Shown one piece after another: positions 1 through 16,778 of a stretch of DNA of 44,746 nucleotides; position 1 is the first letter of the stretch; the number at the start of each line of letters is the position of its first letter. A program made the position numbers and the translations under genes. This DNA comes from a virus. The stretch is from IMG/VR virus record IMGVR_UViG_3300042896_001365, positions 1 to 44,746 of that record; one strand, given 5' to 3'. Under the pieces are notes generated by a model. It worked only from the letters and a program-made list of their open reading frames with translations, did no database searches and had not been told where the DNA came from.

Positions 1-963
1 TCACCTGATTTTGCGCACGGCGGCCATCAGCGACGCAGAGGACAGATGCGAGTAGCGCGCCGTGCTGCGCTGGTCCTTGTGACCCAACACGGCGCCTACG
101 GTGTGCAGGTCGACATCGTTGTTGATCATCGCACTGGCGGCGCTGTGGCGCAGGTCATGTAAGTGCAGCATCGGGAACCCTGCCGCCGTCATTGCGCCGC
201 GCACCAGGCGTTGCAGCCATATTTTGCTGTGACTGAATGGCAGAAATCCCCGCACACATCGGATGCGATCGTGCATCGGTGCAATCCGATCCGATCCGTT
301 CTTCGTGTCGCGCAACAGAAACCCATCCTCAAGCACCTTGTTTTTCTTGCCCAGATCGAGCATTTCGCTCAAGCGCATGCCTGAATAGAACGCCAGCCGG
401 ATCAGTGCCCGCGCCTGGCGATCCTTGCACATGCGGGCAATCTTGATCATTTCGCGCCGCGTCACGTAGGTTTGCCGCTCATTGCGCACGGTCGGAAGTG
501 AAATGCGGTACTGCGCTTCCGGCTCGCCAATGCCGTGATGCTGCTGCGCATACCGGCACGCGGCCCGCAGGTAGGCCAGCTTGTTGCGGATGCTCGCAGG
601 TGACAACCGATCGCGCTCGGCATCGACGTACTCGCGGGCAACGGCGGCCAGCTCATCCATATACCGGCCATCGTAATACGCGGCCAGCCGCGCGAGTTCG
701 CGCGTGGCACCGTCGCCGTTCTTGAGCGACGGGCATCGCTGCTGAATGTAGAGCTTCACGGCGTCGAGGATCAGCCGCCGCTCTTTGATGACACCAGTTG
801 CAACGGCGTAGAGGCGGGCGACTTCGGTTTGATCGAACGCTTTTGCGGCGTTGCGATCCCAATCGAGCGGAAGAAGCTTTGACTGTCGGATGCGCTGCCC
901 TTGGACAACTTGATCGAATTCGAAGCGCCAGCGACGGTTGCGGTTATCATAACGAATAGACAT
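1..963 (-). CDS. int: Phage integrase, tyrosine recombinase (left-end)
   Basis: This 320-residue site-specific recombinase should integrate and excise the phage genome at the host att site. The C-terminal catalytic domain shows the whole active site: Arg in GMRLSE, Lys in DTKNGSDR, the HxxR box HDLRH, His in GHKDQ and the nucleophile Tyr in STARYSHL. The N-terminal part is an AP2-like and core-binding arm. I place the start at the ATG on 963 (MSIRYDNRNRRW) because that is where homology-like sequence begins. The frame stays open to 1029 upstream and overlaps the excisionase-like gene. The stop codon is the first triplet of the window, so the attachment site would lie just outside. It is the last gene of the leftward operon. 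The A7 run ending in its own start codon could allow a frameshift fusion with the preceding gene. Confidence 0.93.
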   Translation of the reverse strand: MSIRYDNRNRRWRFEFDQVVQGQRIRQSKLLPLDWDRNAAKAFDQTEVARLYAVATGVIKERRLILDAVKLYIQQRCPSLKNGDGATRELARLAAYYDGRYMDELAAVAREYVDAERDRLSPASIRNKLAYLRAACRYAQQHHGIGEPEAQYRISLPTVRNERQTYVTRREMIKIARMCKDRQARALIRLAFYSGMRLSEMLDLGKKNKVLEDGFLLRDTKNGSDRIAPMHDRIRCVRGFLPFSHSKIWLQRLVRGAMTAAGFPMLHLHDLRHSAASAMINNDVDLHTVGAVLGHKDQRSTARYSHLSSASLMAAVRKIR

Positions 964-1124
964 TTTTTTGCGTGATCTTCCACGTCCTTGGAGTTGAATC
1001 GAATGCAGCGTCGGCCAAACCTGACGCACGGTATCGGGCCATCTGGCGCTGCGAGATCATACATGGTGCGCCGACTGACGCCCAGCAAGTGGGCCGCGGC
1101 TTCGGCGTTGATCAGTGTTGTCAT
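771..1124 (-). CDS. Excisionase-like MerR/AlpA-type HTH protein
   Basis: Residues 1-55 form a compact winged HTH of the HTH_17/AlpA excisionase type: AAHLLGVSRRTMYDL is the helix-turn-helix and IPCVRFGRRCIRFNSKDV the wing. The likely role is a recombination directionality factor, or a regulator, for the adjacent integrase. Its ATG overlaps the upstream stop as ATGA (1121-1124), so translation is coupled. The last 60 codons overlap the integrase gene in another frame and encode a low-complexity Ser/Lys-rich tail that looks unselected. Either the protein carries this tail or the functional product uses the A7 slip at 963-969. DNA-binding assignment is firm, excisionase function is inferred from position. 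Confidence 0.7.
   Translation of the reverse strand: MTTLINAEAAAHLLGVSRRTMYDLAAPDGPIPCVRFGRRCIRFNSKDVEDHAKKCLFVMITATVAGASNSIKLSKGSASDSQSFFRSIGIATPQKRSIKPKSPASTPLQLVSSKSGG
963..969 (-). other. A AAA AAA slippery heptamer at the xis/int junction
   Basis: On the minus strand the excisionase-like frame reads GCA AAA AAA TGT. The seven A residues therefore lie exactly in the X XXY YYZ phase of a -1 slippery site. A -1 slip gives AAA AAA ATG, entering the integrase frame at its own Met. The integrase frame has no stop from 1029 down to the slip, so a fusion of about 374 residues (HTH plus recombinase) is possible. Transcriptional slippage on A7 could give the same product. Whether it is used is unknown. 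Confidence 0.5.
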
Positions 1125-2209
1125 TGCGTGGCCTTTTTCCGCGATTCAGAATCAATCAGCGCATGAATATAATCCAGGCACTGCATCGCCATTTTGTCAC
1201 CCTCGAAAACATGAGCGGCCGCCACAAGATGCTTCGGATCAACCATTTCAATGGCGCTGTTGACTTGGTCGACCGTGCGCAGCGGGCTGCCGATCAGATC
1301 GTGGCGCTTGAGATAGTCCATGGCCTTCATCGGCAATTCATGGGCTGGATCAGCTTTTTTCAGTTCGCGCATCAGGCGCGCAACGAGGCGCGACAGGTCC
1401 GGGACTCGCGCATCTGGCAACTTGCGCAATTTCGCAAGTTCTGGCGCCGGCCTGGGAAGTACGCGTAGCACCGCATCGGCAAGCCGGTCAATCTCACGCG
1501 AGTCGCACCAATCCGGCGTCTCTGCGCCGCTGGCAATTTCGTCGTTGATCGCTTGGCCGATGGTGTCGTGCAGGCTATCGTGCAAATTGCTATTTTTCGC
1601 AAGTTCAGGCGCCGGCTGCGCAACATCGAAAATATGTGACAGGTCTGGCGAATTCCTCATTGCCATGCCATGCAACACATTCATCCGCAGGACCAGCGTA
1701 CTCAGTGGTGTGCCTTTCCGGTTTGTACCGGCGCCGATCACCACGTCGCATGGCAGCGCCCAGCCCATAGGGTCGGCGGGCATGACGCTTGATTTTTCGA
1801 GTTCCGCAATGCGAGCCTTCAGTTGCCCAATTTCAGATACTTTGTCGCGCCATCCGGGAATGAAGCCGTCCAGCTCTTGAACGTCAAATCCGCCTCGGCA
1901 ATTTCTGCCCTCTAGGTCGATCATGGCGGGCTGCGGCGCCCATTTCTTGCTGTAAGCGTCATACGCTTCGAGATGCAGCGACCATGGAATGCCTGGTGTG
2001 AATCCTTGCACTGGCGCAATCTTTTCTTTCGGAGCGCTTGCAACTCGCTGGACAGCACTGGAAGCCTTCCATCCAGTCCAAAAGCATTCCGTGTTCAAGT
2101 TCATGTAGCCGTCTGCAAAATTTGCATCGGTCCTATCGCTGCGCGTGGTGTTCTGGTGGCGGCAATCGCACCATGCTTCAAACACCGCCCGCATTTTGTC
2201 GTTGCTCAT
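1121..2209 (-). CDS. Phage hypothetical protein of the leftward operon
   Basis: I do not recognise a defined function. The first 60 residues (RAVFEAWCD, then NTECFWTGWKA) resemble the N-terminal motif common to early proteins of lambdoid phages such as ead/Ea22-like proteins. The middle has a short coiled-coil stretch (IGQLKARIAELEKSS). The motif PAPELAK occurs twice, with matching DNA repeats near 1.44 and 1.60 kb, which suggests internal duplication or recombination. The C-terminus is helical. The start at 2209 has GAGG seven bases upstream and overlaps the rdgC stop by 4 bp, so the genes are translationally coupled. Soluble, no signal peptide or membrane segment seen. Confidence 0.75.
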   Translation of the reverse strand: MSNDKMRAVFEAWCDCRHQNTTRSDRTDANFADGYMNLNTECFWTGWKASSAVQRVASAPKEKIAPVQGFTPGIPWSLHLEAYDAYSKKWAPQPAMIDLEGRNCRGGFDVQELDGFIPGWRDKVSEIGQLKARIAELEKSSVMPADPMGWALPCDVVIGAGTNRKGTPLSTLVLRMNVLHGMAMRNSPDLSHIFDVAQPAPELAKNSNLHDSLHDTIGQAINDEIASGAETPDWCDSREIDRLADAVLRVLPRPAPELAKLRKLPDARVPDLSRLVARLMRELKKADPAHELPMKAMDYLKRHDLIGSPLRTVDQVNSAIEMVDPKHLVAAAHVFEGDKMAMQCLDYIHALIDSESRKKATQ

Positions 2210-3105
2210 GATTTCGCCTCGCCGCCCAGCGCCTCGACCAGGTCGGCCAGCATCCGCGCCAGCTCGCCGGTCATCAGGGCCATGTCGCTGTCGAATCGCT
2301 CGTCGCCGTTTTTCGGGCTCGATTCATTTTCCTTGATGACGTCGAGCGGCTTGATGCCTTTGATCGCCAGCGTTTCGGTCAGCACGAACGAGATTTTGCT
2401 ATCCCACGTCATCGCCAGGTGCGTGCACTGCTTGCCGGCTGCGATGTGGCGCCGCACGTCGTCCGCCTCGAGCGTGTGATTGACGTATTTCACCGTTGCA
2501 TGGCCCTCGCCAGTAGCGCGCATCGTGGCGTCCTGGTCGACCGTGAATCCGGCCGGTGCATCATCCGCCTGCAACCACTCGGTCATCACGGCGACCGGCG
2601 AGCGCTGCACGCGCAAGCTTTCCAGCGGCAACTTGTCGACCGCCTTCAGCAGCAGCTTGACCACTTCATCGGCCTTGCTCGGGCTGGCCGCATCGATCAC
2701 CAGCCAGCCGTTGATCGGATCGATCCAGATCTGGGTGCTCGACTCGATGCCGAACGCACGCGGCAGCAGCTCGTCGGCGACGCGCTCCTTCAATTCCTTC
2801 ATCGCCTTCTTGCCCAGTCCGAAACCCTGGGCTTCTTCCATTTCGATGGCGCGCGCCTTGGCCACCTGGTTGACCACGCTGGCCGGTAGCAGCTTCTTCT
2901 CGGTGCGCAGGTTCAGCAGGAACTGGCCGCCGACGGCGTGCACCAGCGGCGCGCCGGGTCCGCGCGGTGGCGCGAAGCCCTGGCGCAGCAAGTCCATGCT
3001 GGTGCACGGCACGAAAGAGTGGGGCGCCAGTGCATCAGCCAGCTGGTCGACGTTCACGGCCCAAGGTGCGGGAAGGCGGTAGATCTGGAGGTTCTTGAAA
3101 AACAT
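2206..3105 (-). CDS. rdgC: Recombination-associated protein RdgC
   Basis: This 299-residue protein begins with MFFKNLQIYRLP and has the length of the RdgC family. RdgC is a ring-shaped, non-specific double-strand DNA-binding protein that modulates RecA-dependent recombination; phage and plasmid copies are known. I start at 3105 (RBS AAGGA 7 bases upstream), not at the longer 3141 ORF. It lies between kfrA-like (30-bp gap) and the unknown gene at 1121 (4-bp overlap). In this operon it may protect or handle phage DNA during replication and integration, which is inference. The sequence looks intact. Confidence 0.93.
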   Translation of the reverse strand: MFFKNLQIYRLPAPWAVNVDQLADALAPHSFVPCTSMDLLRQGFAPPRGPGAPLVHAVGGQFLLNLRTEKKLLPASVVNQVAKARAIEMEEAQGFGLGKKAMKELKERVADELLPRAFGIESSTQIWIDPINGWLVIDAASPSKADEVVKLLLKAVDKLPLESLRVQRSPVAVMTEWLQADDAPAGFTVDQDATMRATGEGHATVKYVNHTLEADDVRRHIAAGKQCTHLAMTWDSKISFVLTETLAIKGIKPLDVIKENESSPKNGDERFDSDMALMTGELARMLADLVEALGGEAKS

Positions 3106-3134
3106 GTTTTGTCCTTGATTATTTGAGAGATAGT

Positions 3135-4028
3135 TCAGCAATCGTCCAGTTGCGATGCCATCAGCCCCGTCGATTTACTCGGTGGTGGCGTTGAAATTGA
3201 ATCGGCGATGGCCACCGGCATTGGCCTTGGGCCGGGAGTGGCGGACGCTGCCGGCGCCAGCGCTGGCGGCTGAATGGCAGCAACCGGCGCTGCCTGCAAG
3301 GCCTGGACCTGGGCGCGCAGCGCGTCGACCTCCTTTCGTTCCGATCGGGTATCGGCTTCTTCAGCGGCCAGGCGTTGCTGCAGGTCGGCCACCTGCTCAT
3401 CAGTCTTGGCCAGGGTTGCCGCAGCCACCGCCGCGATCTGTTCAGCCTTGACCCGAGCGACGTGCTCCAGCTCAAGCGCAGCCCGCAAGCGATCGATTTC
3501 CGCTTCTAACCGCGGAACGCCTTCGAGCCGCAGCTCGGTCTTCGCCTTTTCCGTTCTGGCCCACTCGGCGGCCAGGCGCTGGGACTGCGCGTCATTGCGC
3601 GATTCATCCAGGTCCGCGCTCAGCTGCGTCAGGCGGCCTGCTAGTTCGGCGTTCGTCGCCTGCAGGGTGTCGATGTCCTGCACTTGGGATTCGATGCTGG
3701 CATCCTGGCGCTCCGATTCCGCGATCAGGTCCGCATTCGATTGCTGGATCGTCACCATGTCCGATTCCAGCGCCGCCCGGGCGCTGGAGACTTCCTGGCC
3801 GATGAACTCCACCAGGGCGCGTTGCAGCGTCGCCGGCAAGATCGTGACGGCGCCGGGCGCCTGCATCTGTCCCGATTGCCATACCTGCAAGAACTTCAAT
3901 ATCGTGCCCATGCTGCCCCGGCCCATCGCCTCGCGCACCGATCTGGCGGCAGGCTTGACGCCAGCGGCGCGGATCTTGTCGGCCGCCGCGTTGACTTCTT
4001 CCTGGCTGATTTTTGCTTCGCGTACCAT
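3135..4028 (-). CDS. KfrA-type DNA-binding coiled-coil protein
   Basis: The N-terminal 60 residues (SQEEVNAAADKIRAAG, then ARSVREAMGRGS and ILKFLQVWQ) match the KfrA N-terminal DNA-binding domain of broad-host-range plasmids. Residues of about 75-235 are a long alanine-rich coiled coil, followed by a Pro/Ala-rich tail. Plasmid KfrA is an autorepressor and nucleoid-like organiser that helps segregation and forms multimers through the coil. The ATG at 4028 is preferred because GGAG lies six bases before it; two in-frame ATGs at 4040 and 4034 are upstream. It follows the actin-like ATPase gene, separated by a stretch rich in GTAACG repeats that is a natural candidate for its binding site. Confidence 0.82.
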   Translation of the reverse strand: MVREAKISQEEVNAAADKIRAAGVKPAARSVREAMGRGSMGTILKFLQVWQSGQMQAPGAVTILPATLQRALVEFIGQEVSSARAALESDMVTIQQSNADLIAESERQDASIESQVQDIDTLQATNAELAGRLTQLSADLDESRNDAQSQRLAAEWARTEKAKTELRLEGVPRLEAEIDRLRAALELEHVARVKAEQIAAVAAATLAKTDEQVADLQQRLAAEEADTRSERKEVDALRAQVQALQAAPVAAIQPPALAPAASATPGPRPMPVAIADSISTPPPSKSTGLMASQLDDC

Positions 4029-4044
4029 GCCCATCTCCATGTTT

Positions 4045-4092
4045 GTAACGTGTAACGTAACGGCTTGTGTAACGTGTTACCTGCGCCGTTAC
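4045..4092. repeat. GTAACG repeat cluster, candidate KfrA operator/centromere
   Basis: Between the actin-like gene and the kfrA-like gene the hexamer GTAACG occurs at 4045, 4052, 4057 and 4069, with inverted copies GTTAC at 4076 and CGTTAC at 4087. GTAAC-GT-GTTAC at 4069-4080 forms a hyphenated inverted pair. KfrA proteins bind repeats near their own promoter, and partition loci need an iterated centromere. This is the only such cluster seen near the two genes. Binding is inferred. Confidence 0.55.
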
Positions 4093-4103
4093 ACCTCACA
4101 TCG

Positions 4104-5156
4104 TTATGCTGCCGCGCGGTATTTTTCGGCCCACATGTGGTGCGCGTACAAGCCAAAGCGGCACAGCCCTTCGGCGATCGACATCGATGGGTTCGAATCG
4201 AGCACGGCATTGGGGAACACGCCCTGGATGCTGTCGATGACCAGCGGCGCGATGCCTCCGGAAACGATGACCCCGTTCAGGCGTTTCGCGGCACTGCCCA
4301 GCAGCGTCTGGGCGCGGTTGATGATCGCGGAGCGCAACGGCTGCACGGCGGCATCGATGATGTCGGACACGTCGATGTGTTTTCCGTAGTGCAGGACCTG
4401 GCCAGTCTTGATCGCTTCGTCGACCGATGCCAGTTCGTCCGAATAGCCGCGCGAATTGAATTCGGCCCTGACTGCCGAATAGACTTTCGATGCGCCGCCG
4501 ATCGAATCGCCGCCCACGGCCTGGAATTCGGTTTTCAGCAGGATCGAAAAATCGGTCGTGAAATGCCCGATGTCGATCACGGCCCATGAGTCGAACGCTT
4601 CGCGGTAGACCAGGTCCGGCAAACCGTCAGGCAAGTGCTGCAAGTTCTTCAGCGGCACCGCTGCTTGCGGCTGCACCAGGATCACCAGTTGCTGGCCAGG
4701 CGCCAGGTAAGCGCGCAGCAACTCCGTCACGCGCAGCTTCAAGGCATCTTTCTGCGTCTTGAAAAATGCGGACGGCAATCCCAGCGCCAGGTGGATCACT
4801 TGCGGACGGCAGTCGATCATCGACATCGCGCGCTGCCAGGCGCCGACGATCAAGACATCATGGACATGAGTGGCGATCCAGTCGCGCGATTCGCCCGAAA
4901 AACCGGCCGGCATCCCTTGCGCAATCGCGCTGTCGCCGAAAATGTAAGCGGCGCCATCGATCATCACGGTATTGAGCGCTACCCGGCGCGCCGTTTCGTC
5001 GTCGGGCATGTCGATGGCGGGAATGACGACGGTCGGGATCGTGGCGACATGGCGCAACGTCGGCCGGTCCAGCATCGCTGCCGCGACCTTGACCGAGCTG
5101 TGGCCGACATCGATGCCGAACGAGGCAAATCCAGCGAGCTGATGCATCTGGTGCAT
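4104..5156 (-). CDS. parM-like: ParM/StbA-type actin-like ATPase
   Basis: All nucleotide-binding motifs of the actin/Hsp70 fold are visible. Phosphate-1 is GIDVGHSSVKV near the N-terminus, phosphate-2 is VIDIGHFTTDF in the middle, and the adenosine motif is VIVSGGIAPL near the C-terminus. FGDSAIAQG is also typical of plasmid StbA/ParM relatives. Such proteins polymerise with ATP and move plasmid or phage DNA. The start at 5156 has AAGGA upstream; the longer reading from 5189 lacks an RBS. A classical ParR adaptor is not obvious: the 44-residue protein upstream and the KfrA-like protein downstream are the only candidates. It belongs to the leftward operon, so expression should follow PL. Confidence 0.85.
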   Translation of the reverse strand: MHQMHQLAGFASFGIDVGHSSVKVAAAMLDRPTLRHVATIPTVVIPAIDMPDDETARRVALNTVMIDGAAYIFGDSAIAQGMPAGFSGESRDWIATHVHDVLIVGAWQRAMSMIDCRPQVIHLALGLPSAFFKTQKDALKLRVTELLRAYLAPGQQLVILVQPQAAVPLKNLQHLPDGLPDLVYREAFDSWAVIDIGHFTTDFSILLKTEFQAVGGDSIGGASKVYSAVRAEFNSRGYSDELASVDEAIKTGQVLHYGKHIDVSDIIDAAVQPLRSAIINRAQTLLGSAAKRLNGVIVSGGIAPLVIDSIQGVFPNAVLDSNPSMSIAEGLCRFGLYAHHMWAEKYRAAA

Positions 5157-5179
5157 GGGGTTTCCTTTTGGTAGGGCAG

Positions 5180-5314
5180 TTATGGGCAAACAGCTTTATC
5201 GGCCAACTGCGCCAGGTATTCGGCAGCCGTCATGTGGACAACCGTCTTGCTGCTGCCGTTGACGATGCCGAGCATCACGCGGCGCAGGGAGGTGGGCTTG
5301 ATTTTGAGTTTCAT
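5180..5314 (-). CDS. 44-residue protein, first gene of the leftward operon
   Basis: The ORF encodes 44 residues beginning MKLKIKPTSLRRVMLG and ending LAQLADKAVCP. It has a strong AGGAG seven bases before the ATG and stops 23 bp before the actin-like gene. It is basic at the N-terminus and helical at the C-terminus (TAAEYLAQLADKA). The family is unknown to me. Its place directly upstream of the actin-like gene makes a small DNA-binding or filament adaptor conceivable, but nothing in the sequence proves that. The good RBS and operon position are the reasons for calling it. Confidence 0.6.
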   Translation of the reverse strand: MKLKIKPTSLRRVMLGIVNGSSKTVVHMTAAEYLAQLADKAVCP

Positions 5315-9488: not shown

Positions 9489-9866
9489 ATGAAAATCATA
9501 CCACAGTCACGCATCAATATCCCCGCCAAGTCGCTTCGGCGCCACACGCTCTTGATGGCCATGCTCGAAGGCAGCGGCACGATTTACCAAATCTGCGAGC
9601 GCGCCGACATCGACATCGGAACCGTCACCCAGGAGCACGCCGTGCGCCACTTGTTCGAGCTGATGATCCAGTCCGGGCTCGCCCGCATCGATGGCATCGT
9701 TTATTCGATCAGCCGCCATGCGCGCGCCGCGCTGGCGCCAGTTGCGCCCGCACCGCTCGGCCAGGCCGCGACATCGCATTACCGCGGACCGGCCTGCGCC
9801 ATGCCGGTCACGCACACCATCCGCCACGCTTCACAAAAAACAACAACGCAAGGAATCGCAGCATGA
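9489..9866 (+). CDS. Phage protein with winged-helix-like N-terminus
   Basis: This 125-residue protein opens a tightly coupled ten-gene operon. Residues 18-70 (LRRHTLLMAMLEGSGTIYQI, then VRHLFELMIQSGLARI) look like a small winged helix used by phage regulators or replication accessories. The C-terminal half is Ala/Thr-rich and probably disordered. The stop overlaps the ParB-like start by ATGA. Function is unknown. Confidence 0.65.
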   Translation: MKIIPQSRINIPAKSLRRHTLLMAMLEGSGTIYQICERADIDIGTVTQEHAVRHLFELMIQSGLARIDGIVYSISRHARAALAPVAPAPLGQAATSHYRGPACAMPVTHTIRHASQKTTTQGIAA

Positions 9867-11458
9867 ACGACATCAATTTCAGAACCTTGCTGCTGGCCGA
9901 TCTGACGCCATCGCCAACCAACCCGCGCAAGCATTTCGATGCGACCGCGCTGGCCGAGCTGGCCGACAGCATCGCGCAGCAGGGCCTGGCCCAGCCGATC
10001 CTGGTGCGCCCGATTCTGGATACCGGTCGCTATGAAATTGTGGCTGGCGAGCGGCGCTACCGCGCGTCAAGCCTGGCGGGCCTCTCCACCATCATCGCCG
10101 TCGTGCGCAACCTGTCGGACCTGGAAGCGCTCGAGCTGCAAGTGATCGAGAATTTACAGCGCGCCGATCTGCACCCGATGGAAGAGGCGCAGGGATACGC
10201 GCAACTGATGCAGGCGCACAACTTCACCGCCGACCAGTTGGCGGACAAGGTCGGCAAGAGCAAATCCTACATTTACAACCGGCTCAAGCTGCTGGACCTG
10301 GCGCCGGCGGGGCAAGAGGCGTTTTATGCCGGGAAGTTGACGCCGGCCACCGCGCTGCTGGTGGCGCGCATCCCCGTGCCGGAATTGCAGGCGCGCGTGG
10401 TGGCGGAAATCACATCATCTGGCAATTACAACCAGGAGGTGATGACGGCGAAGCAGGCGGCGCACCATATCCATCTGAAATATATGCTGCAGCTGAAGCA
10501 GGCGCCGTTCAAGACCGGCGACGCGACACTGGTGCCGGCCGCCGGCGCCTGCGGTGCATGCCCGAAGCGCACCGGCAACCAGCCGTTGCTGTTCGAGGAC
10601 ATCGAGAGCCTGGACACGTGCACCGATCCGGACTGTTTCGAGCTCAAGCGCGAGGCCGGCAAGCGGCGCACGCTGGCCGATGCCAAGCAGGCCGGGCAGA
10701 ACGTCATCCGCGGCGTAGAGGCCAGGCGGATCATGCCGAACAGCTACAGCGGATGCTCGTTGAGCGAGGGCTATGTCGCGATCACCGATACCTGCTTCGA
10801 CGACGTAAAGAAACGTACCTTCGCGCAGATCCTCGGCAAGTCGCCGGCGGTCAGCCTGATGGAGGACCCGCACCGGGGCACGCTGATCAAGGTGGTCAAG
10901 ATCGACGATATCCGCGCGACGCTGGCAGAAAGCGGCATCCGGCCGCGCGCCAGCGTCGTCAGCGACAACACCAGGCAGCGCGCGCTCGAGGCGAAGGTCA
11001 AGGCCGAGAAGGAATACCGGCGTCGCCTGTTCATTGCGGTGCGCGATCGCGCCGAACCCGTGATCGATCGCGCCATGCTGAACGACGTCGCAACCAGGTT
11101 GTATCTGAATTCGGCTTACACCGAGCGGCCATTCATGGCGGGCCTGTACGAATTCCAGAAAAGCATGGTCGAATATCCCGGCGCATCTGAAAAAACGCAC
11201 GCAGTCATGGCGGCGATGGATGATGCGACGATCAACCGGCTGATCCTCGATTGCATGCTGCTCGATGAGCTGTCGGTCAGCCACCACACACCCGACGGCA
11301 AGCCGGAAAAGCTGCTTGCGGCCGCCGCGCGTGTGGGCGTCGATCCTGGTGATATCAGGGCCTCCATCAAGGCCGAGGTCAAGGCCAAGCTCAGTGCAAA
11401 GGCGGGCGCCAAGAAAAAACCGGCAGCGAAAAAAACAGCATCCACGGTGCCGGCATGA
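9863..11458 (+). CDS. parB-like: Large ParB/RepB/Spo0J-family protein
   Basis: The N-terminal 150 residues are a typical ParB core. LTPSPTNPRKHFD begins the domain, GERRYRA is the CTP-binding box, ENLQRADLHPMEEA is the second box, and TADQLADKVGKSKSYIYNRL is the HTH. It continues to 531 residues, about twice the length of chromosomal ParB. A Cys cluster (CGACPKRTG, then CTDPDCFELK) may bind zinc, and the tail is Lys/Ala-rich. Members of this long type occur in phages and mobile elements and may partition DNA, regulate transcription or, in some relatives, cut DNA. No ParA is next to it; the only cytoskeletal partner in the window is the actin-like ATPase at 4104-5156. ATGA overlaps occur at both ends. 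Confidence 0.85.
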   Translation: MNDINFRTLLLADLTPSPTNPRKHFDATALAELADSIAQQGLAQPILVRPILDTGRYEIVAGERRYRASSLAGLSTIIAVVRNLSDLEALELQVIENLQRADLHPMEEAQGYAQLMQAHNFTADQLADKVGKSKSYIYNRLKLLDLAPAGQEAFYAGKLTPATALLVARIPVPELQARVVAEITSSGNYNQEVMTAKQAAHHIHLKYMLQLKQAPFKTGDATLVPAAGACGACPKRTGNQPLLFEDIESLDTCTDPDCFELKREAGKRRTLADAKQAGQNVIRGVEARRIMPNSYSGCSLSEGYVAITDTCFDDVKKRTFAQILGKSPAVSLMEDPHRGTLIKVVKIDDIRATLAESGIRPRASVVSDNTRQRALEAKVKAEKEYRRRLFIAVRDRAEPVIDRAMLNDVATRLYLNSAYTERPFMAGLYEFQKSMVEYPGASEKTHAVMAAMDDATINRLILDCMLLDELSVSHHTPDGKPEKLLAAAARVGVDPGDIRASIKAEVKAKLSAKAGAKKKPAAKKTASTVPA

Positions 11459-11631
11459 TCCCGGACCTGTCCTTCGTCACCCGCCAGCACCTGGCTATCC
11501 AGCGCGAAACCTGCGTCGGCGCTTATACGCCGAGGCGCCAGTGCAAGGGCGAATGCAAGAAGCGCAAGAGCATCGGCCAGTTCATTGGCGCATCGGCGTT
11601 GTGCATCCGCTGCGCGCGGAGGCTTTCATGA
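11455..11631 (+). CDS. 58-residue Cys-rich zinc-ribbon-like protein
   Basis: The ORF overlaps the ParB-like gene and the replication gene by ATGA at both ends. The product has QCKGECKKR and LCIRCARRL, a CxxxC/CxxC arrangement consistent with one zinc site. This pattern is common for small proteins in phage replication operons. Nothing more specific is recognised. Confidence 0.6.
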   Translation: MIPDLSFVTRQHLAIQRETCVGAYTPRRQCKGECKKRKSIGQFIGASALCIRCARRLS

Positions 11632-12386
11632 GCATCCGCGTCATGACGTCGGTATTTGACCGCTACCCGAACGGGGGCGGCGAGATGCTGCTTGCGCTGG
11701 CCCTGGCTGACCATGCGCACGACGATGGTAGCCATGTCTATCCGTCGATCGAGCAGCTTGCAAAAAAGACGCGCCAGTCCGAGCGCACGGTGCAGTACCA
11801 GTTGCGCAAAATGGAAGAGTCTGGCTGGCTGGTCCTGGAAAATTCAGGCAACGGAGGCCGGAATCAGCGGCGTGAATACCACATTGATGGCGCATGGATA
11901 AAGGGTGCAGAAATTGCACCCTTACAAAAGAGTGCAATCCACGACATAAAGGGTGCAACTGACGACATAAAGGGTGCAACTGACGACGTAAAGGGTGCAA
12001 CTGACGACACTAAAGGGTGCAAACCGTTGCACCCGCATAGAACCATCAGTAAACCATCAGAACCATCAGTAAACCATAAAGCGCCAAGCCCGGCCTTGCC
12101 GGACATGTTCGATGGCATTGCCAAGCAGGTCGTCGAAGATTTCAAGGCGCTGCGCAAAGCCAAGCGGGCGGCGATCACGCCAACGGCGATCAACGGCATC
12201 CGGCGCGAGGCGGCCAAGGCGGGCATCACGCTGGAAGCGGCCCTGGCGATGTGCTGCGAGCGCGGCTGGTCCGGATTCAAAGCCGACTGGGCTGGCGTGC
12301 AACCCCCTGACGCCAGCGCCGCACCCGCCAAGCCGACCAAGTTCGACCCCGTCGCCCACGTCAACCGCAACCGGAAAAAATCATGA
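11628..12386 (+). CDS. O-like: Lambda O-like replication initiator with internal iterons
   Basis: The real start is ATG 11628 (MSIRVMTSVFDRYP), coupled to the upstream stop. The N-terminal 80 residues are a winged helix of phage replication initiators (HVYPSIEQLAKKTRQSERTV, then LRKMEESGWL). The central segment is encoded by 21-bp DNA repeats and reads KGATDD over and over, as in lambda O where the origin iterons lie inside the gene. The C-terminal part (KQVVEDFKALRKAKRAAITP) is the expected partner-binding region. It is followed by the P-like gene with a 4-bp overlap. The assignment rests on domain order, iterons and neighbour. Confidence 0.82.
   Translation: MSIRVMTSVFDRYPNGGGEMLLALALADHAHDDGSHVYPSIEQLAKKTRQSERTVQYQLRKMEESGWLVLENSGNGGRNQRREYHIDGAWIKGAEIAPLQKSAIHDIKGATDDIKGATDDVKGATDDTKGCKPLHPHRTISKPSEPSVNHKAPSPALPDMFDGIAKQVVEDFKALRKAKRAAITPTAINGIRREAAKAGITLEAALAMCCERGWSGFKADWAGVQPPDASAAPAKPTKFDPVAHVNRNRKKS
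11898..12034 (+). repeat. Iteron array, candidate phage replication origin
   Basis: The 10-mer AAAGGGTGCA occurs five times within TAAAGGGTGCA-type units starting near 11898, 11946, 11967, 11988 and 12010. Three are exact 21-bp tandem units (AAAGGGTGCAACTGACGACAT type). Inverted copies TGCACCCTT (11915-11923) and TTGCACCC (12027-12034) bracket the array and can form hairpins. Location inside the initiator gene matches lambda ori. The protein-level repeat (KGATDD) is a by-product of the DNA repeat. Confidence 0.82.
12041..12080 (+). repeat. Two tandem 20-bp AT-richer repeats next to the iterons
   Basis: AACCATCAGTAAACCATCAG at 12041-12060 is repeated at 12061-12080 with 18/20 identity. Each unit itself contains two AACCAT cores. 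It is the least GC-rich patch of the gene and lies directly after the iterons, so it may be the DNA unwinding element. Confidence 0.55.
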
Positions 12387-13147
12387 ACATGCCCCTCACC
12401 GCAGCACAAGCCATGCCGATCGCGGCCACGACCACGCGCCCGCATTCGCGCTGGTTTGAAGTTCATCCGGCGCTTGGCATTTCGATGGTCGATCACCTTT
12501 TCAACCGGCTCGACGGCGCTTATCCGCACAAGTGGCGTTCGGCGTTTTCGACGCAGCAGGCGATCGACAACTGGTCCGAAAGCTGGGTCGAGGCCTTCGA
12601 GGACGAAGGGATCACGCCGGGCGACATCAAGGCCGGGCTCAAGGCGTGCCGCAGTCGATACGAGTGGCCGCCATCGTGCGCCGAATTCATCAAGGCGTGC
12701 AAGCCCTTTGCCGATCCTATGGTCGCTTACCACGAGGCGGTGGCAGGACTGGAAGCACGTGCCAAGGGCGAGATGGGGTTGTGGCCGCATCCGGCCGTGT
12801 ACTGGGCCGCCTCGCTGCTGTCGCGTGAATTACAGGGCCAGACCTACGCGCAGGTCAAGGACCGCTGGGCCGCCGCGCTCAAGGGCCAGCTTGCGCGCAC
12901 CGAGTGGGCTGAGGTTCCGCCGCCCCGGCTGCAGATCGAGGCGCCAGGCAAGGGCGCGCTGTCGAAAGAGGCCGCCGCGCAGATGCTGCACGAACTCGAC
13001 GCGACCGGGATCACCAAGCAATTCATGGACAGGACGAACCACAAGGCATGGGCTGAAAAAATTATGGCGCGCTTGCGCATCGGCGATAAAACGCTGCAGA
13101 TGATCCAGATCAATCTCGCCAAGGAAGCGATGGGAGCAGGGACATGA
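12383..13147 (+). CDS. P-like: Lambda P-like replication protein (helicase loader)
   Basis: The 254-residue protein follows the O-like gene with an ATGA overlap. MVDHLFNRLDGAYPHKWRSA and NWSESWVEAFEDEGITPGDI, then LKACRSRYEWPPSCAEFIKA, are the hallmarks of the phage replication protein P family. These proteins load the host DnaB helicase at the phage origin through the initiator. The C-terminal region (KFMDRTNHKAWAEKI-like) agrees with the family. No truncation is apparent. Confidence 0.85.
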   Translation: MNMPLTAAQAMPIAATTTRPHSRWFEVHPALGISMVDHLFNRLDGAYPHKWRSAFSTQQAIDNWSESWVEAFEDEGITPGDIKAGLKACRSRYEWPPSCAEFIKACKPFADPMVAYHEAVAGLEARAKGEMGLWPHPAVYWAASLLSRELQGQTYAQVKDRWAAALKGQLARTEWAEVPPPRLQIEAPGKGALSKEAAAQMLHELDATGITKQFMDRTNHKAWAEKIMARLRIGDKTLQMIQINLAKEAMGAGT

Positions 13148-13386
13148 AGCCATTCCCCTCCGACACCGATACCCCGATCACTGATGCGCTGATCGCCAAA
13201 GCCATGGCCGAATACCCGACCGATCATTTACCGAACAGCAGCATCAAGCGCGTCATGAATCGGTATTTTGAAGCCGTGCACCAAGACTTGGCGCCGCTGT
13301 GCCGCCAATTTGAGGCCGAGAACCGGGCGCTGCGCGAGCGGCTGTGCTATCCGACTCTCAAGGCGGGCGTTAAGGCGAGCGCATGA
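13144..13386 (+). CDS. 80-residue phage hypothetical protein
   Basis: The product begins MKPFPSDTDTPITDALIAKA and ends in a helical stretch (LCRQFEAENRALRERLCYP). The opening DTPITDA is common in small phage proteins of replication regions. It is translationally coupled on both sides by 4-bp overlaps. Function is unknown. Confidence 0.65.
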   Translation: MKPFPSDTDTPITDALIAKAMAEYPTDHLPNSSIKRVMNRYFEAVHQDLAPLCRQFEAENRALRERLCYPTLKAGVKASA

Positions 13387-13583
13387 AAACTTGCCTCCAG
13401 TGCGACAACCTCGATTTGCAAGCCTTCCCGAAGCATGCCGGCGCCGGGTTCGGGCGCTGCAAGAAGGATCCGACATTGGGCGTGTTCGTCAATCTGCGCT
13501 CGTGCCGGCGCACATGTCCCATTTTCAAGGCGGCCAGCGAGAAGATCGTTCTGGCGCGCGTCACCTGGAGCAAAAAACTATGA
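13383..13583 (+). CDS. 66-residue Cys-rich zinc-finger-like protein
   Basis: The start is MKTCLQCDNLDLQAF, followed by GRCKKDP and SCRRTCPIF. Cys residues at about 4, 7, 26, 41 and 45 could form one zinc site. Such small Cys-rich proteins often sit in phage replication operons. Coupled by ATGA at both ends. Function is unknown. Confidence 0.65.
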   Translation: MKTCLQCDNLDLQAFPKHAGAGFGRCKKDPTLGVFVNLRSCRRTCPIFKAASEKIVLARVTWSKKL

Positions 13584-13930
13584 ACAAAATTCTGGCGCAG
13601 CTGCTGGGTTGGACCGATCTGGTCGAACTGGGCGGGTCGCTGCTGGGCCTGCCGCCCGCTAGCGCGCCGAACTGCCGGGGCCAGGCCCTGGTGCCGGATT
13701 GGCTTGGCGACTGGCGCGACTGCGGGCCGCTGATCGAGATGGCCAACATCGACATTCTGTGCTGGTGGCCTGATCAATTCGAGGTGGATCGAGCAATTGT
13801 AGTTTGTGCCGATCACGCCAGCCGGGATGCAGCATTGCGTCATGCGATCGTGCTAGCCGCGATCGATGTATTTCAAAAATTTGGCATTGAGTACGCCAAT
13901 CTGCAAAAAAATAACGAGGAAACGCCATGA
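13580..13930 (+). CDS. DUF2591-like phage ABA-sandwich protein
   Basis: The gene starts at ATG 13580 (MNKILAQLLGWTDLVEL) and gives 116 residues. The segment WRDCGPLIEMANIDILCWW, followed by SRDAALRHAIVLAAI, matches the phage ABA-sandwich/DUF2591 pattern (a DW-x-GGPLIE-type box, then a C-terminal helix that starts after a small polar turn). The biochemical role of the family is unknown. It is coupled to both neighbours. Confidence 0.6.
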   Translation: MNKILAQLLGWTDLVELGGSLLGLPPASAPNCRGQALVPDWLGDWRDCGPLIEMANIDILCWWPDQFEVDRAIVVCADHASRDAALRHAIVLAAIDVFQKFGIEYANLQKNNEETP

Positions 13931-14679
13931 GCATCGACATCAACCAATTGCTGGCACTGATCGCAGCACGACCGAAAATTCGTACGGTGGAGATTGCCGA
14001 CATCATGGATTGCGATCCCCACCAGGTACAGCCGCTGCTGCAATCCAGCATTGATGCCGGTACGGTCATCCTGCACCTGGTGACGGCGCCCAACGGCAAG
14101 CCGGCGAACGGGTTTGAAATGCGGCCCAGCCCGGCGCCGGCCAAGATCGGCATCGAGGCGCGCGGCGTCGACATCGATTCCGTACACGGCAGCAAGACCC
14201 GCAACCACACGCATGGCTTGCCGTTGACGAAAGTGGACCGCGCCATCGCCTTCGTAGCGGCGCACGGCGGTGCTACCTCCGAGCAGCTGCATGCCGAGAT
14301 GGGGTTGAAGGTTGGTCATTCGGTGGTCAGCTTCTTGCGAGGCCCGGTCGCAGATGGCCGGCTGCTCAAGGATGGCAGTTGCTGGTCGCTGCCGCCCGAG
14401 CGCGGCGCCGCTGTAACTGCTGCATCTGCTGCACCTGTGCCCGTCTCGCCAGCCTTGGTGGTAGTGGCGGATGCTGCGTCAGTTCCGCTGCCAGCTCCCG
14501 TCATTGAGCTTCCTACATTGATTGAGCTTCCTACATTGGACGTCGATGCCTCCGGGTTCCGCTGCGCGATCTGGTCGGATGGTGCGATGGAGTTGCAGCG
14601 TGCCGGCCGCACGCTGGCGACGTTGACGACGATCGAGCAGACGCAGCTGAGCCAGTTTCTGAGGCGCATTGCCGCATGA
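13927..14679 (+). CDS. Phage protein with two winged-helix-like domains
   Basis: Residues 8-60 (IAARPKIRTVEIADIMDCDP) and 100-160 (DRAIAFVAAHGGATSEQLHA, then KVGHSVVSFLRGPVADGRLL) each look like a winged helix. A Pro/Ala/Val linker follows, containing an exact tandem repeat IELPTL-IELPTL, encoded by a duplicated 18-bp unit at about 14504-14539. The C-terminal domain (GFRCAIWSDGAMELQRAGRT) resembles one seen in phage DNA-binding proteins. It may be a regulator. The last gene of the chain, the second recombinase, is coupled to it by ATGA. Confidence 0.7.
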   Translation: MSIDINQLLALIAARPKIRTVEIADIMDCDPHQVQPLLQSSIDAGTVILHLVTAPNGKPANGFEMRPSPAPAKIGIEARGVDIDSVHGSKTRNHTHGLPLTKVDRAIAFVAAHGGATSEQLHAEMGLKVGHSVVSFLRGPVADGRLLKDGSCWSLPPERGAAVTAASAAPVPVSPALVVVADAASVPLPAPVIELPTLIELPTLDVDASGFRCAIWSDGAMELQRAGRTLATLTTIEQTQLSQFLRRIAA

Positions 14680-15719
14680 CATGCCACGTTTTCAAGATCG
14701 GCCCGGTGTGGCATTACCGCTTCCAGGTCGACGGCGTGCGGATCCAGAAATCGACGCGCCAGCGCGTCCGGAAGCTGGCCGAGCCGGTCGCGCAGCGCGC
14801 CTATGCCGATGCGTTGACCAGGTCGAACGGCGGGGCCCCGGTACCCACGCTGGCCGAGCTGATCAAGGATTGGCGCGAAGTCCATGCGCCAGTATCGAGC
14901 GCGGCACATGCGCGCAGCGTCGAGATTTGCGAGCGCCTGCATTTGTACGACCTGGGCGCGATGGCGGTCGATACGATTTCGACCACGCACATCGAGCTTG
15001 CGCGCAACGAACATTTGCTGACGCACAAGCCAGCCAGCGCAAACCACTGGTTGAGGATACTCAAGCTCGTGGCCAACTGGGCCGTCAAGCGCGACATCAT
15101 CGCCCATCTGCCGTGGCGCGCCTCCATGCTCAAGGTCCAGAAGCGTCCGCGCGCGATCTTGCCGATCGATGTCGCCGCAGTGTGGTTCGACGCCATCGAT
15201 GAGGCCTGTTCCGGTACGCCGTCGGTCGGTACCGCGATCCGCATGATGTTCGGCCTCGGTTTACGCGAGTCGGAGTCCGCCAGCGCGCGATGGGAATGGA
15301 TCGACTGGCAGCGTGCGACCTACACGCCGGGCATCACGAAAGGGCGCGAAGCCGAGCCGGTGCCGATGCCAGACTGGCTGGTAGCTCATTTGATGACGCT
15401 GCGCAAAGCCGAGGGCTTGATCGCGACCAGGGCCAACGGCAAGCCGCACCCGCCCGGCTTCGCCCGCAAGGTCATGAATGCGGCGAATGCAGCATGTGCG
15501 ATCAAAGGCATCACGCCGCACAGGCTGCGCGGAACATTTGCTACGTTGCTGTCGGAAGCAGGGGTGCCGATCCAGACGATACAAAAAGTCATGCGGCACA
15601 AAAGCCCGATGACGACGATGGCCTATCTGGAAAAGAATTTGAACACGGCGGCACTGGCGCAAAACATGATCGCCGGCAAGATCGGTTTCAGCGCTCAAGA
15701 TGAAAAACGGGCGCAATAA
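14676..15719 (+). CDS. Second tyrosine recombinase/integrase
   Basis: This 347-residue protein has the complete catalytic set: Arg in GLGLRESE, Lys in GITKGREAEPVPMP, the HxxR box HRLRGTF, His in MRHKSPM and Tyr in TTMAYLEK. The N-terminus is a core-binding domain. It is not a close copy of the left-end integrase. Unusually, it is the last gene of the replication chain, coupled by ATGA to the preceding gene, so it should be made during lytic growth. Directly after its stop lies an 82-bp sequence that recurs 0.97 kb downstream. It may resolve genome multimers, act at the second repeat, or be the integrase of a captured element. Confidence 0.9.
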   Translation: MTCHVFKIGPVWHYRFQVDGVRIQKSTRQRVRKLAEPVAQRAYADALTRSNGGAPVPTLAELIKDWREVHAPVSSAAHARSVEICERLHLYDLGAMAVDTISTTHIELARNEHLLTHKPASANHWLRILKLVANWAVKRDIIAHLPWRASMLKVQKRPRAILPIDVAAVWFDAIDEACSGTPSVGTAIRMMFGLGLRESESASARWEWIDWQRATYTPGITKGREAEPVPMPDWLVAHLMTLRKAEGLIATRANGKPHPPGFARKVMNAANAACAIKGITPHRLRGTFATLLSEAGVPIQTIQKVMRHKSPMTTMAYLEKNLNTAALAQNMIAGKIGFSAQDEKRAQ

Positions 15720-15731
15720 CTATTATTTATT

Positions 15732-15813
15732 GGCGAAGAAGTGGCGAACACCACCCTTCAAACCCGCATGTTTCCTCACTTTCATGATTATTGTGAGTCA
15801 TCGGTTGGTAACG
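15732..15813 (+). repeat. 82-bp imperfect direct repeat, copy 1 (after second integrase)
   Basis: This sequence starts 12 bp after the recombinase stop and matches 16697-16778 at 72 of 82 positions without gaps, including 25 identical bases beginning CACCCTTCAAACCCG. It stays open in the recombinase frame, encoding GEEVANTTLQTRMFP, so copy 1 could be a former extension of that gene. An attachment-site role is possible given the position next to a recombinase gene. Confidence 0.75.
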
Positions 15814-15875: not shown

Positions 15876-16259
15876 ATGAACATCAGAGATTTTTTCAGCT
15901 TCAAATTACCTTCGACCAGGCGGCGCGAGGCCCGCGAAGCAGCTGAAGCGCTGGCGCAAGCAAAGCGCGAACAAGGCCGCGAGCAGCGCAGCGTTACGGC
16001 GCGAAGAAACTGGACCGGTCAAGGCAGCAGCGCGATGCAGCCGGCGCCGGCATGGGACGGATACGCAGCATCAGCGCCGGCCAGCGCACCAGATCATCGC
16101 ACCGCGCATGCATCGCCGATGTCCGGCCACGGCGGCACGTTCGACGGCGGCGGCGCATCCGGCGACTGGGGTGGAAGCTCCTCCAGCTGCTCGTCATCGA
16201 GTTCCAGCGATTCTGGTTCGAGCTCGTCGGACAGCAGTAGCTGTGGATCGGGAGATTGA
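15876..16259 (+). CDS. Ser/Gly-rich low-complexity phage protein
   Basis: The 127-residue protein has a basic, helical N-terminus (LPSTRRREAREAAEALAQAK) and an Ala/Pro-rich middle. Its C-terminal tail is made of Ser, Gly and Asp with three spaced Cys (SSSSCSSSSSSDSGSS, ending CGSGD). The tail is common in uncharacterised bacterial and phage proteins and is probably disordered. No RBS stands out. Function is unknown. It lies between the two 82-bp repeats. Confidence 0.6.
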   Translation: MNIRDFFSFKLPSTRRREAREAAEALAQAKREQGREQRSVTARRNWTGQGSSAMQPAPAWDGYAASAPASAPDHRTAHASPMSGHGGTFDGGGASGDWGGSSSSCSSSSSSDSGSSSSDSSSCGSGD

Positions 16260-16262
16260 TAA

Positions 16263-16676
16263 ATGGATCATTTTGGTATCGGGCAAGCCATGCAAGGCAT
16301 GGCAAGGATATACATTCAATCGTCGCGTCGATCCGGCCGCACCACATCATTGGTTGAAAGCCTGAAGGATGGAGACCGGGTGTGCTGCGCCACGCAGCGA
16401 GAAGCCAAGCTGTTGCACCAACTGCTGGTTGAGCGCGGGCTGAACGTCGAGTGCATCGCAGTTGATCCGATGTCACCTAGTCGTTTGAGGGAGCGTGGAA
16501 TTTCACATGGCCGCACAGTTTTCGACCACACATGGGTCGAGCAGTACTACATAGCAGCTCTGCAGCGATGCCAGGAAGAAATCGACCATCTGCAGCAGCA
16601 CATGTCTGGTTCCGAAACACACCATATTGAGACCCATCGACAATCGGATTACTTCACCAGGTGGAATGTCGGATGA
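16263..16676 (+). CDS. P-loop-like phage hypothetical protein
   Basis: GGGAG precedes the ATG at 16263. The 137-residue product has SRRSGRTTSLVESLKDGDRV, a Walker-A-like turn followed by a helix, then REAKLLHQLLVERGLNVECI and GRTVFDHTWVEQYY, where the Asp could be a Walker-B remnant. The tail is a short coiled coil. It may be a degenerate P-loop domain; catalytic competence is doubtful because the GxxxxGK[ST] signature is absent. The stop overlaps an ATG at 16673 that opens a frame through the second 82-bp repeat. Confidence 0.6.
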   Translation: MDHFGIGQAMQGMARIYIQSSRRSGRTTSLVESLKDGDRVCCATQREAKLLHQLLVERGLNVECIAVDPMSPSRLRERGISHGRTVFDHTWVEQYYIAALQRCQEEIDHLQQHMSGSETHHIETHRQSDYFTRWNVG

Positions 16677-16696
16677 TCGAATACTTGGATTTGGAC

Positions 16697-16778
16697 GGCG
16701 AGAAAGTGGCGAACGACACCCTTCAAACCCGCATGTTTCCTGACCTTCGTGATTATTGTGAATCATCGGTTAGAAACG
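16697..16778 (+). repeat. 82-bp imperfect direct repeat, copy 2
   Basis: It matches 15732-15813 at 72/82 positions. Here it also encodes the same peptide (GEKVANDTLQTRMFP) in the frame opened by ATG 16673, which runs on into the gene at 16859. The protein-level conservation suggests that one copy arose by duplication of coding sequence or that both mark a recombination junction. Confidence 0.75.

Follow-up and report, generated by a model that had tools for sequence, protein, structure and literature searches.

The window, by which we mean the whole 44,746-base IMG/VR record analyzed here, carries two genes for tyrosine recombinases, int1 at the left end of the record and int2 at the end of a replication operon (Table 1). 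As the earlier note had stated, both are complete and they are different proteins: their products align over 144 amino acids with 22% identity, and the R, K, HxxR, H, and Y residues are in register. Int1 is probably the lysogeny integrase. The same note had described int2 as the tenth gene of an overlapping chain, and this description holds, as ten ORFs run from 9489 to 15719 with int2 as the last, all nine junctions are ATGA overlaps, and there are no internal stops. Within the O-like initiator gene of this chain, 21-bp units (AAAGGGTGCAACTGACGACAT and variants) are arranged head-to-tail at 11927-12010, and these are possibly the replication origin, as in lambda O.

Table 1. Features of the int2 region and of two related islands; coordinates are those of the window unless a locus is named.
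Feature	Position	Strand	Basis or remark
int1, left-end tyrosine recombinase	1-1029	-	PF00589, 2.4e-18; at record end
Nine chain genes upstream of int2	9489-14679	+	ATGA junctions; family matches for some, the rest without function
ParB	9863-11458	+	in int2 chain
O-like initiator	11628-12386	+	in int2 chain
lambda P-like helicase loader	12383-13147	+	in int2 chain
int2	14676-15719	+	347 aa; lambda-Int-type tyrosine recombinase; PF00589, 3.4e-17; PHROG_1 integrase, 3.7e-48
Site 1, paired arm motif TGGCGAAGAAGTGGCGA	15731-15747	+	sequence; position shared by 50 of 53 sites
Site 1, whole first 82-bp repeat	15732-15813	+	element model 15730-15807, E 5.9e-18 (site among the model's training sites)
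Site 1, core GATT-ATTGTG-AGTCATCGG	15786-15804	+	sequence, site alignment; variable centre ATTGTG at 15790-15795
Inter-site segment	15814-16696	+	ORFs 15876-16259 (127 aa) and 16263-16676 (137 aa), no Pfam family for either
Site 2, second 82-bp repeat	16697-16778	+	arms 16696-16712, core 16751-16769; element model 16693-16772, E 1.2e-18 (training site)
Related islands of ~9 kb	L112:187-9176; L110:8296-17552		int2 site present, int2 absent

Int2 belongs to the tyrosine recombinases, scoring 63.2 bits against the Phage_integrase model PF00589 (cut-off 27.1). Among 60 full-length int2 proteins, 58 have the R..K..HRLR..H..Y set, including those of the window and of a plasmid-borne relative; the exceptions are L039, which fits the first two patterns only and whose tblastn match is split over two frames, and L064, which fails the R pattern alone. 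In the predicted structure (pLDDT 76.8, pTM 0.48), an N terminus of b-b-b-a topology spanning residues 4-50, as in arm-binding domains, is followed by core-binding and catalytic domains. The model aligned with lambda Int (1z1b) over 349 columns with an E value of 2.3e-6, and with a TM score of 0.31 and an r.m.s.d. of 12 this match supports the order of the domains rather than their arrangement. The best structural match of the model was the Int of Tn1549. By its sequence and predicted fold, Int2 would be classed as a heterobivalent integrase of the lambda Int type, with a paired arm motif beside its core site.

The 82-bp repeats mentioned in the earlier note are real, being two direct copies that are 88% identical, and they lie just downstream of int2 and appear to belong to it. 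The first copy begins 12 bp after the int2 stop codon, and the second lies 965 bp further downstream. Alignment of the element with those of relatives revealed a paired arm motif (approximately TGGCG(A/C)GAAAGTGGCGA, with two TGGCG units 11 bp apart), then ~30-40 nt of linker and a core of the form RATKAT-YNNN-RRTCATCSG, in which both sides hold and the centre varies. In 50 of 53 sites the arm pair has a fixed place, 62-71 bp ahead of where the TCAT of the core ends. Other arm pairs with one mismatch near int2 sites are scattered or lie within int2, and no second pair recurs outside the gene.

Relatives of int2 were collected from two sources. In IMG/VR, 43 loci matched, with an identity of 58-72% for 41 of these; three (L006, L021, and L027) are the same as bacterial-genome loci over their shared length and L019 is the same as L018 over 2500 bp, and removal of these left 37 distinct viral loci. 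Bacterial genomes contributed 25 loci, of which 24 showed 51-71% identity and one (L071) spans 66 residues only. The hosts are Janthinobacterium, Duganella, Massilia, and other Oxalobacteraceae, together with Paraburkholderia and Trinickia. Isolate phages yielded no close relative, the 37 records with a match all falling below 60% identity. The plasmid relative (L072:20001-21065, 54.6% identity) is carried on an 87-kb Massilia plasmid. The ORFs of the relatives come from automatic gene calling, which places many on the wrong strand in GC-rich DNA, and they were used for coordinates only, after confirmation by Pfam, and were excluded from counts. The phages that carry int2 differ in their packaging genes, which comprise a lambda-type GpA terminase (the window), a PF03354 terminase, Terminase_3 with a P22-like portal, and Terminase_6 with an SU10-like portal.

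The element accompanies int2 across this sample. Reading of the DNA revealed a common motif after the int2 stop codon in 39 of 42 loci, duplicates counted, and an element profile matched 36 of the 37 distinct viral loci and, in bacterial genomes, 20 of 24, always on the strand of int2. The profile was trained on most of these sites; among 14 loci outside the training set, nine match at E<1e-3. It did not recognize the element at five of 61 loci (L040, L060, L067, L068, and L069) or in the plasmid relative L072, and an inserted sequence displaces the element in L052 and L056. A diverged arm-like motif can be made out by eye after the recombinase gene of L072, and this plasmid may carry its own version of the recombinase/site pair. 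One query each against isolate phages and plasmids gave no match to the element. Most whole viral records (22 of 27) contain a single copy; four (including the window) have two, and one has none. Relative to the int2 reading frame, the arm motif of 53 sites falls in frame 0 in 23, in frame 1 in 25, in frame 2 in one, and after the stop in three, with one unscored, these counts including sites of the same clade that are not independent. Because the motif is kept across different reading frames, selection would appear to act on the DNA and not on a peptide. The possibility of an RNA element was discarded, RNAalifold finding only four weak pairs in 43 sites, none changed on both sides.

The element is very probably the recombination site of int2 itself, a view that draws on comparison with two more distant integrases. 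In L121 (48% identity) and L157 (37%), the motif TGGCG-N6-TGGCGA occurs twice, 217-218 bp apart, with one copy in L157 differing between the TGGCG units, and between the two pairs we read, by eye, a 3' tRNA half with its T-loop and CCA end. Two arm sets around a core are the classic plan of an attP, and the int2 site looks like an attP from which one arm and the host core have been removed. The tree joins the two tRNA integrases with each other without fixing their place among the int2 proteins, so that the direction of change, from a two-arm attP to a one-arm site, is one that we infer.

The kinship with tRNA integrases raises the question of whether int2 is an alternative or ancestral integrase that uses an attB in a host, prophage, or satellite. 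L121 and L157 do resemble tRNA integrases whose attP has two arms, copies of the site lie in other resident elements, and eight of 26 relatives' viral records (26 examined, out of 41 loci) have no second recombinase over the cut-off, with one sub-threshold match among them; these records may be fragments. The other 18 of the 26 do carry another tyrosine recombinase, within 3 kb of a contig end in 15. TerL (PF03354) was found in 14 records, and in all 14 it lies downstream of int2 and its site on the same strand, at 2.8 to 10.5 kb in 12, and in the other two, across the record ends, only if the record is circular. A search of 20 host genomes with the core pattern GATTATNNNNARTCATCNG gave 26 places, against none for a reversed-pattern control; 24 of these are known elements, the two outside them being G034:C6:703682 and G343:C55:7889. 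No attB with the phage's own centre was found in these genomes for cores of the GATTAT type, which the pattern covers, AATTAT and AATGAT types falling outside it. Where a lysogeny integrase has arms on both sides, a host attB, and a site at the boundary of the prophage, the int2 locus shows a single recurring arm pair, no attB in this search, and a terminase downstream. Int2 is probably not the lysogeny integrase, and we regard the alternative-integrase explanation as distinctly unlikely. Of the roles proposed in the earlier note, one other than ordinary lysogenic integration is supported by the second recombinase of the 18 records, the outcome of the attB search with GATTAT-type cores, and the position of TerL, and DNA inversion is not supported, as the window's copies are direct repeats; an inversion system was rejected more generally, the copies being on the same strand in all 16 two-site loci and all four two-site records. 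That note had also reasoned that int2 would be a simple remnant if its relatives served as the only integrase of similar phages, which is not what the 18 records show, the remaining eight having no second match over the cut-off.

Taken together, these data suggest a role for Int2 in which its partner would be the compact site beside its own gene (arm pair plus core), and not a host attB. Int2 would be derived from a phage integrase and, being co-produced with the replication proteins, would act in lytic growth. There it would recombine copies of the site on separate phage circles or within one multimeric circle, and the circles would be joined, resolved, or both, a task like that of Cre/lox performed with parts like those of lambda Int. 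We give the proposal that Int2 recombines site with site on phage circles in the lytic phase, joining or resolving them, about an even chance. In its favor are the tie between element and gene, the conservation at the DNA level, the usually single copy, and the paired motif around tRNA-end cores in relatives; against it are the five loci and L072 in which the element is not recognizable. We infer the element's part as a recombination site, the site-by-site recombination, its timing, its direction, and its benefit from these patterns.

Multimer resolution by Int2 is possible and lies close to this reading. The architecture (an adjacent site, with one copy in 22 of the 27 records) is consistent with resolution of the Cre/lox type. 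Phages that package from cos need concatemers, and int2 is present in phages with a lambda-type GpA terminase as well as in phages with a P22-like portal, so that the use of an enzyme that did no more than resolve circles to monomers is not evident. The operon position suggests a further role, in which int2 would replace a Holliday-junction resolvase, RusA or Rap/NinG often being the last product encoded in operons of this kind. RusA (PF05866) was found in none of the 27 records, whereas three of 14 control genomes were positive, and the resolvase search covered this family. Tyrosine recombinases act at specific sites, and a substitute resolvase would leave the conserved cognate element unexplained; we consider this role highly improbable.

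Two sites frame an interval of 0.9-2.0 kb at 16 loci, and this arrangement bears on what recombination between sites might achieve. The small genes in these intervals include ones for proteins that resemble dATP/dGTP diphosphohydrolase and for DUF4406 and DUF7220 proteins; in the window, the 127-aa ORF at 15876-16259 has an unusual C-terminal tail rich in Ser, Cys, and Gly. In the sites of other tyrosine recombinases the centre is the crossover region. The central six bases of sites 1 and 2 are different in 15 of the 16 loci, and the window alone has identical centres (ATTGTG twice). If the centre is the crossover region here too, the window's interval is predicted to be excisable as a circle of ~965 bp, and the intervals of the 15 other loci would not be excisable in this way. 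These 15 loci represent two lineages (12 with ATCATC/ATTGTG and three with ATCATC/ATTATG) and count as two observations rather than fifteen. Differing centres are the pattern to be expected if identical sites lead to deletion of the interval.

The differing centres would also fit a system selected for module exchange, in which a double site-specific crossover swaps the accessory block between co-infecting phages, a natural form of recombinase-mediated cassette exchange. The 12 Janthinobacterium-type loci provide a view of such shuffling, as site 2 is bordered by two left flank types and three shared right types in all six combinations, with a private right flank in three of the loci. Homology on one side of site 2 does not go with homology on the other (phi -0.07, 66 pairs), whereas 17 of 20 control positions gave values of 0.29-1.00 and the other three gave -0.13, 0.07, and 0.17. 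In 55 close pairs, identity drops from 0.90 in the element to 0.85, 0.55, 0.46, and 0.38 downstream of it, the last by 68-128 nt after. Reassortment at site 2 might seem decisive for site-specific recombination, but the flanks of a conserved 240-bp ORF block in the same interval proved just as independent (phi 0.08), and homologous recombination of the ordinary kind at conserved patches accounts for the reassortment equally well. Variants within site 2 track neither flank cleanly, identity just upstream of int2 is often broken too (means 0.53-0.63), and 22 of the 27 records have a single site. Selection for module exchange is therefore, in our judgment, rather unlikely. Somewhat less likely again is its fuller form, a lytic-phase recombinase with two direct sites of different centre framing an accessory block that co-infecting phages swap precisely, and with satellites carrying a matching site by which they trade in, or parasitize, this exchange.

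Copies of the element also occur apart from the enzyme. Among 343 genomes of one family, the element was detected at E<=0.001 in 14, at 24 places, and at three of these (L110, L112, and L113) there is no int2 inside about 8.5-9 kb. L110 and L112 are related islands that share an order of an integrase by a tRNA-Leu, primase/helicase, a capsid gene near the right end, the element, and a repeated att-like sequence; in L113 the element comes after genes for a DNA helicase and a capsid protein, and the borders of L113 were not found. Two of the three host genomes lack a close int2 (one with no match and one with a 26% match). The centre ATTGAG is common to L110, L112, and the int2 phages L136, L141, L148, and L128. 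From their gene content, L110 and L112 resemble capsid-encoding satellites, and we call them satellite-like on that basis. On the preferred reading, in which Int2 recombines site with site, these islands carry the same site and it is plausibly a substrate for the Int2 of a helper.

Such enzyme-free copies could indicate a different role for the element. In P2 and P4, late-promoter or cos sequences are common to helper and satellite, and the element could likewise be a regulatory signal in DNA or RNA (promoter, antitermination, or packaging) whose link to int2 is incidental. Its presence without int2 in satellite-like elements would then be expected. The lack of a conserved RNA structure in the aligned sites argues otherwise, as does the lasting association of element and int2 across phages whose terminase families differ; attP-like regions of related integrases contain the arm motif as well, and two copies per genome argue against cos. 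We consider the regulatory-signal explanation very unlikely.

Comparison with known systems helps to place the pair. With the lambda-type integrases that have a two-arm attP (lambda Int, L121, and L157), int2 shares the domain order, the catalytic set, and an arm-plus-core site by the gene, and with L121 and L157 also the paired arm motif. It differs from them in its one arm pair, in a core that is not recognized as the end of a host gene, in the failure of the 20-genome search with GATTAT-type cores to find an attB, in its place within a replication chain, and in the company of another recombinase in 18 of 26 records. Phage P1 encodes Cre, which with lox forms a phage recombinase and site pair, and Nigri/nox and Panto/pox are reportedly similar pairs. 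Like these, int2 is a phage recombinase with an adjacent, mostly single-copy site and no host target found; unlike them, it has arm motifs and a predicted arm-binding fold, most of its relatives look like integrated rather than plasmid prophages, and its site is found in satellite-like elements too. The plasmid multimer-resolution sites cer and psi, used by XerCD, have accessory DNA on one side, and the int2 site similarly combines a core with an accessory binding sequence on one side, but here the enzyme is self-encoded and of the integrase type, and there are no known accessory proteins.

Integrons (IntI with attI/attC) resemble the locus in that a site and small variable genes come after a tyrosine recombinase gene, whereas the second int2 site is a full copy and not an attC-like hairpin, and sites are mostly single. 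An integron was rejected, as the integron-integrase model TIGR02249 gave 47.7 bits against a cut-off of 265, and no conserved fold of the element was found with RNA parameters. The helper-satellite system of P2 and P4 is alike in that satellite-like elements carry a cis element also present in phages, and differs in that the shared element here looks like a recombinase site and not a cos or late promoter. Part of the published account of a Pseudomonas helper/satellite pair names one integrase per element (PMC4936722). We found no description of the present recombinase/site pair in the titles and abstract beginnings of the open-access PMC literature. A phage recombinase with its site is a known kind of system; what appears to be new is the present variant, which combines a one-arm integrase-type site with a replication operon and with copies borne by satellites. 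Second integrases in phages are easily dismissed as remnants; int2 is conserved with its own element across four terminase types and, in the window, lies in an operon for lytic replication. This suggests that the lytic cycle of Oxalobacteraceae and Paraburkholderia phages includes a step of site-specific recombination, and that a cis element is common to these phages and satellite-like islands.

The suggestion in the earlier note that the recombinase forms part of a plasmid-type maintenance kit with the ParB-like and actin-like genes was not borne out. ALP_N and ParB_N were each found in one of 27 records, the window both times, and the 26 records of int2-bearing relatives contain no actin-like gene of the ALP_N family; of the window's two genes, ParB belongs to the int2 chain, whereas the actin-like one is on the opposite strand, in the left arm. 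There, genes for RdgC, a KfrA_N protein, and the actin-like protein are consecutive on the minus strand (2206-5189). Genes found directly after the int2 site in other phages, in the accessory position, include an RdgC homologue with 65% identity to that of the window (L013:7128-8036) and a homologue of the window ORF at 13927-14679 with 33% identity (L012:7177-7911).
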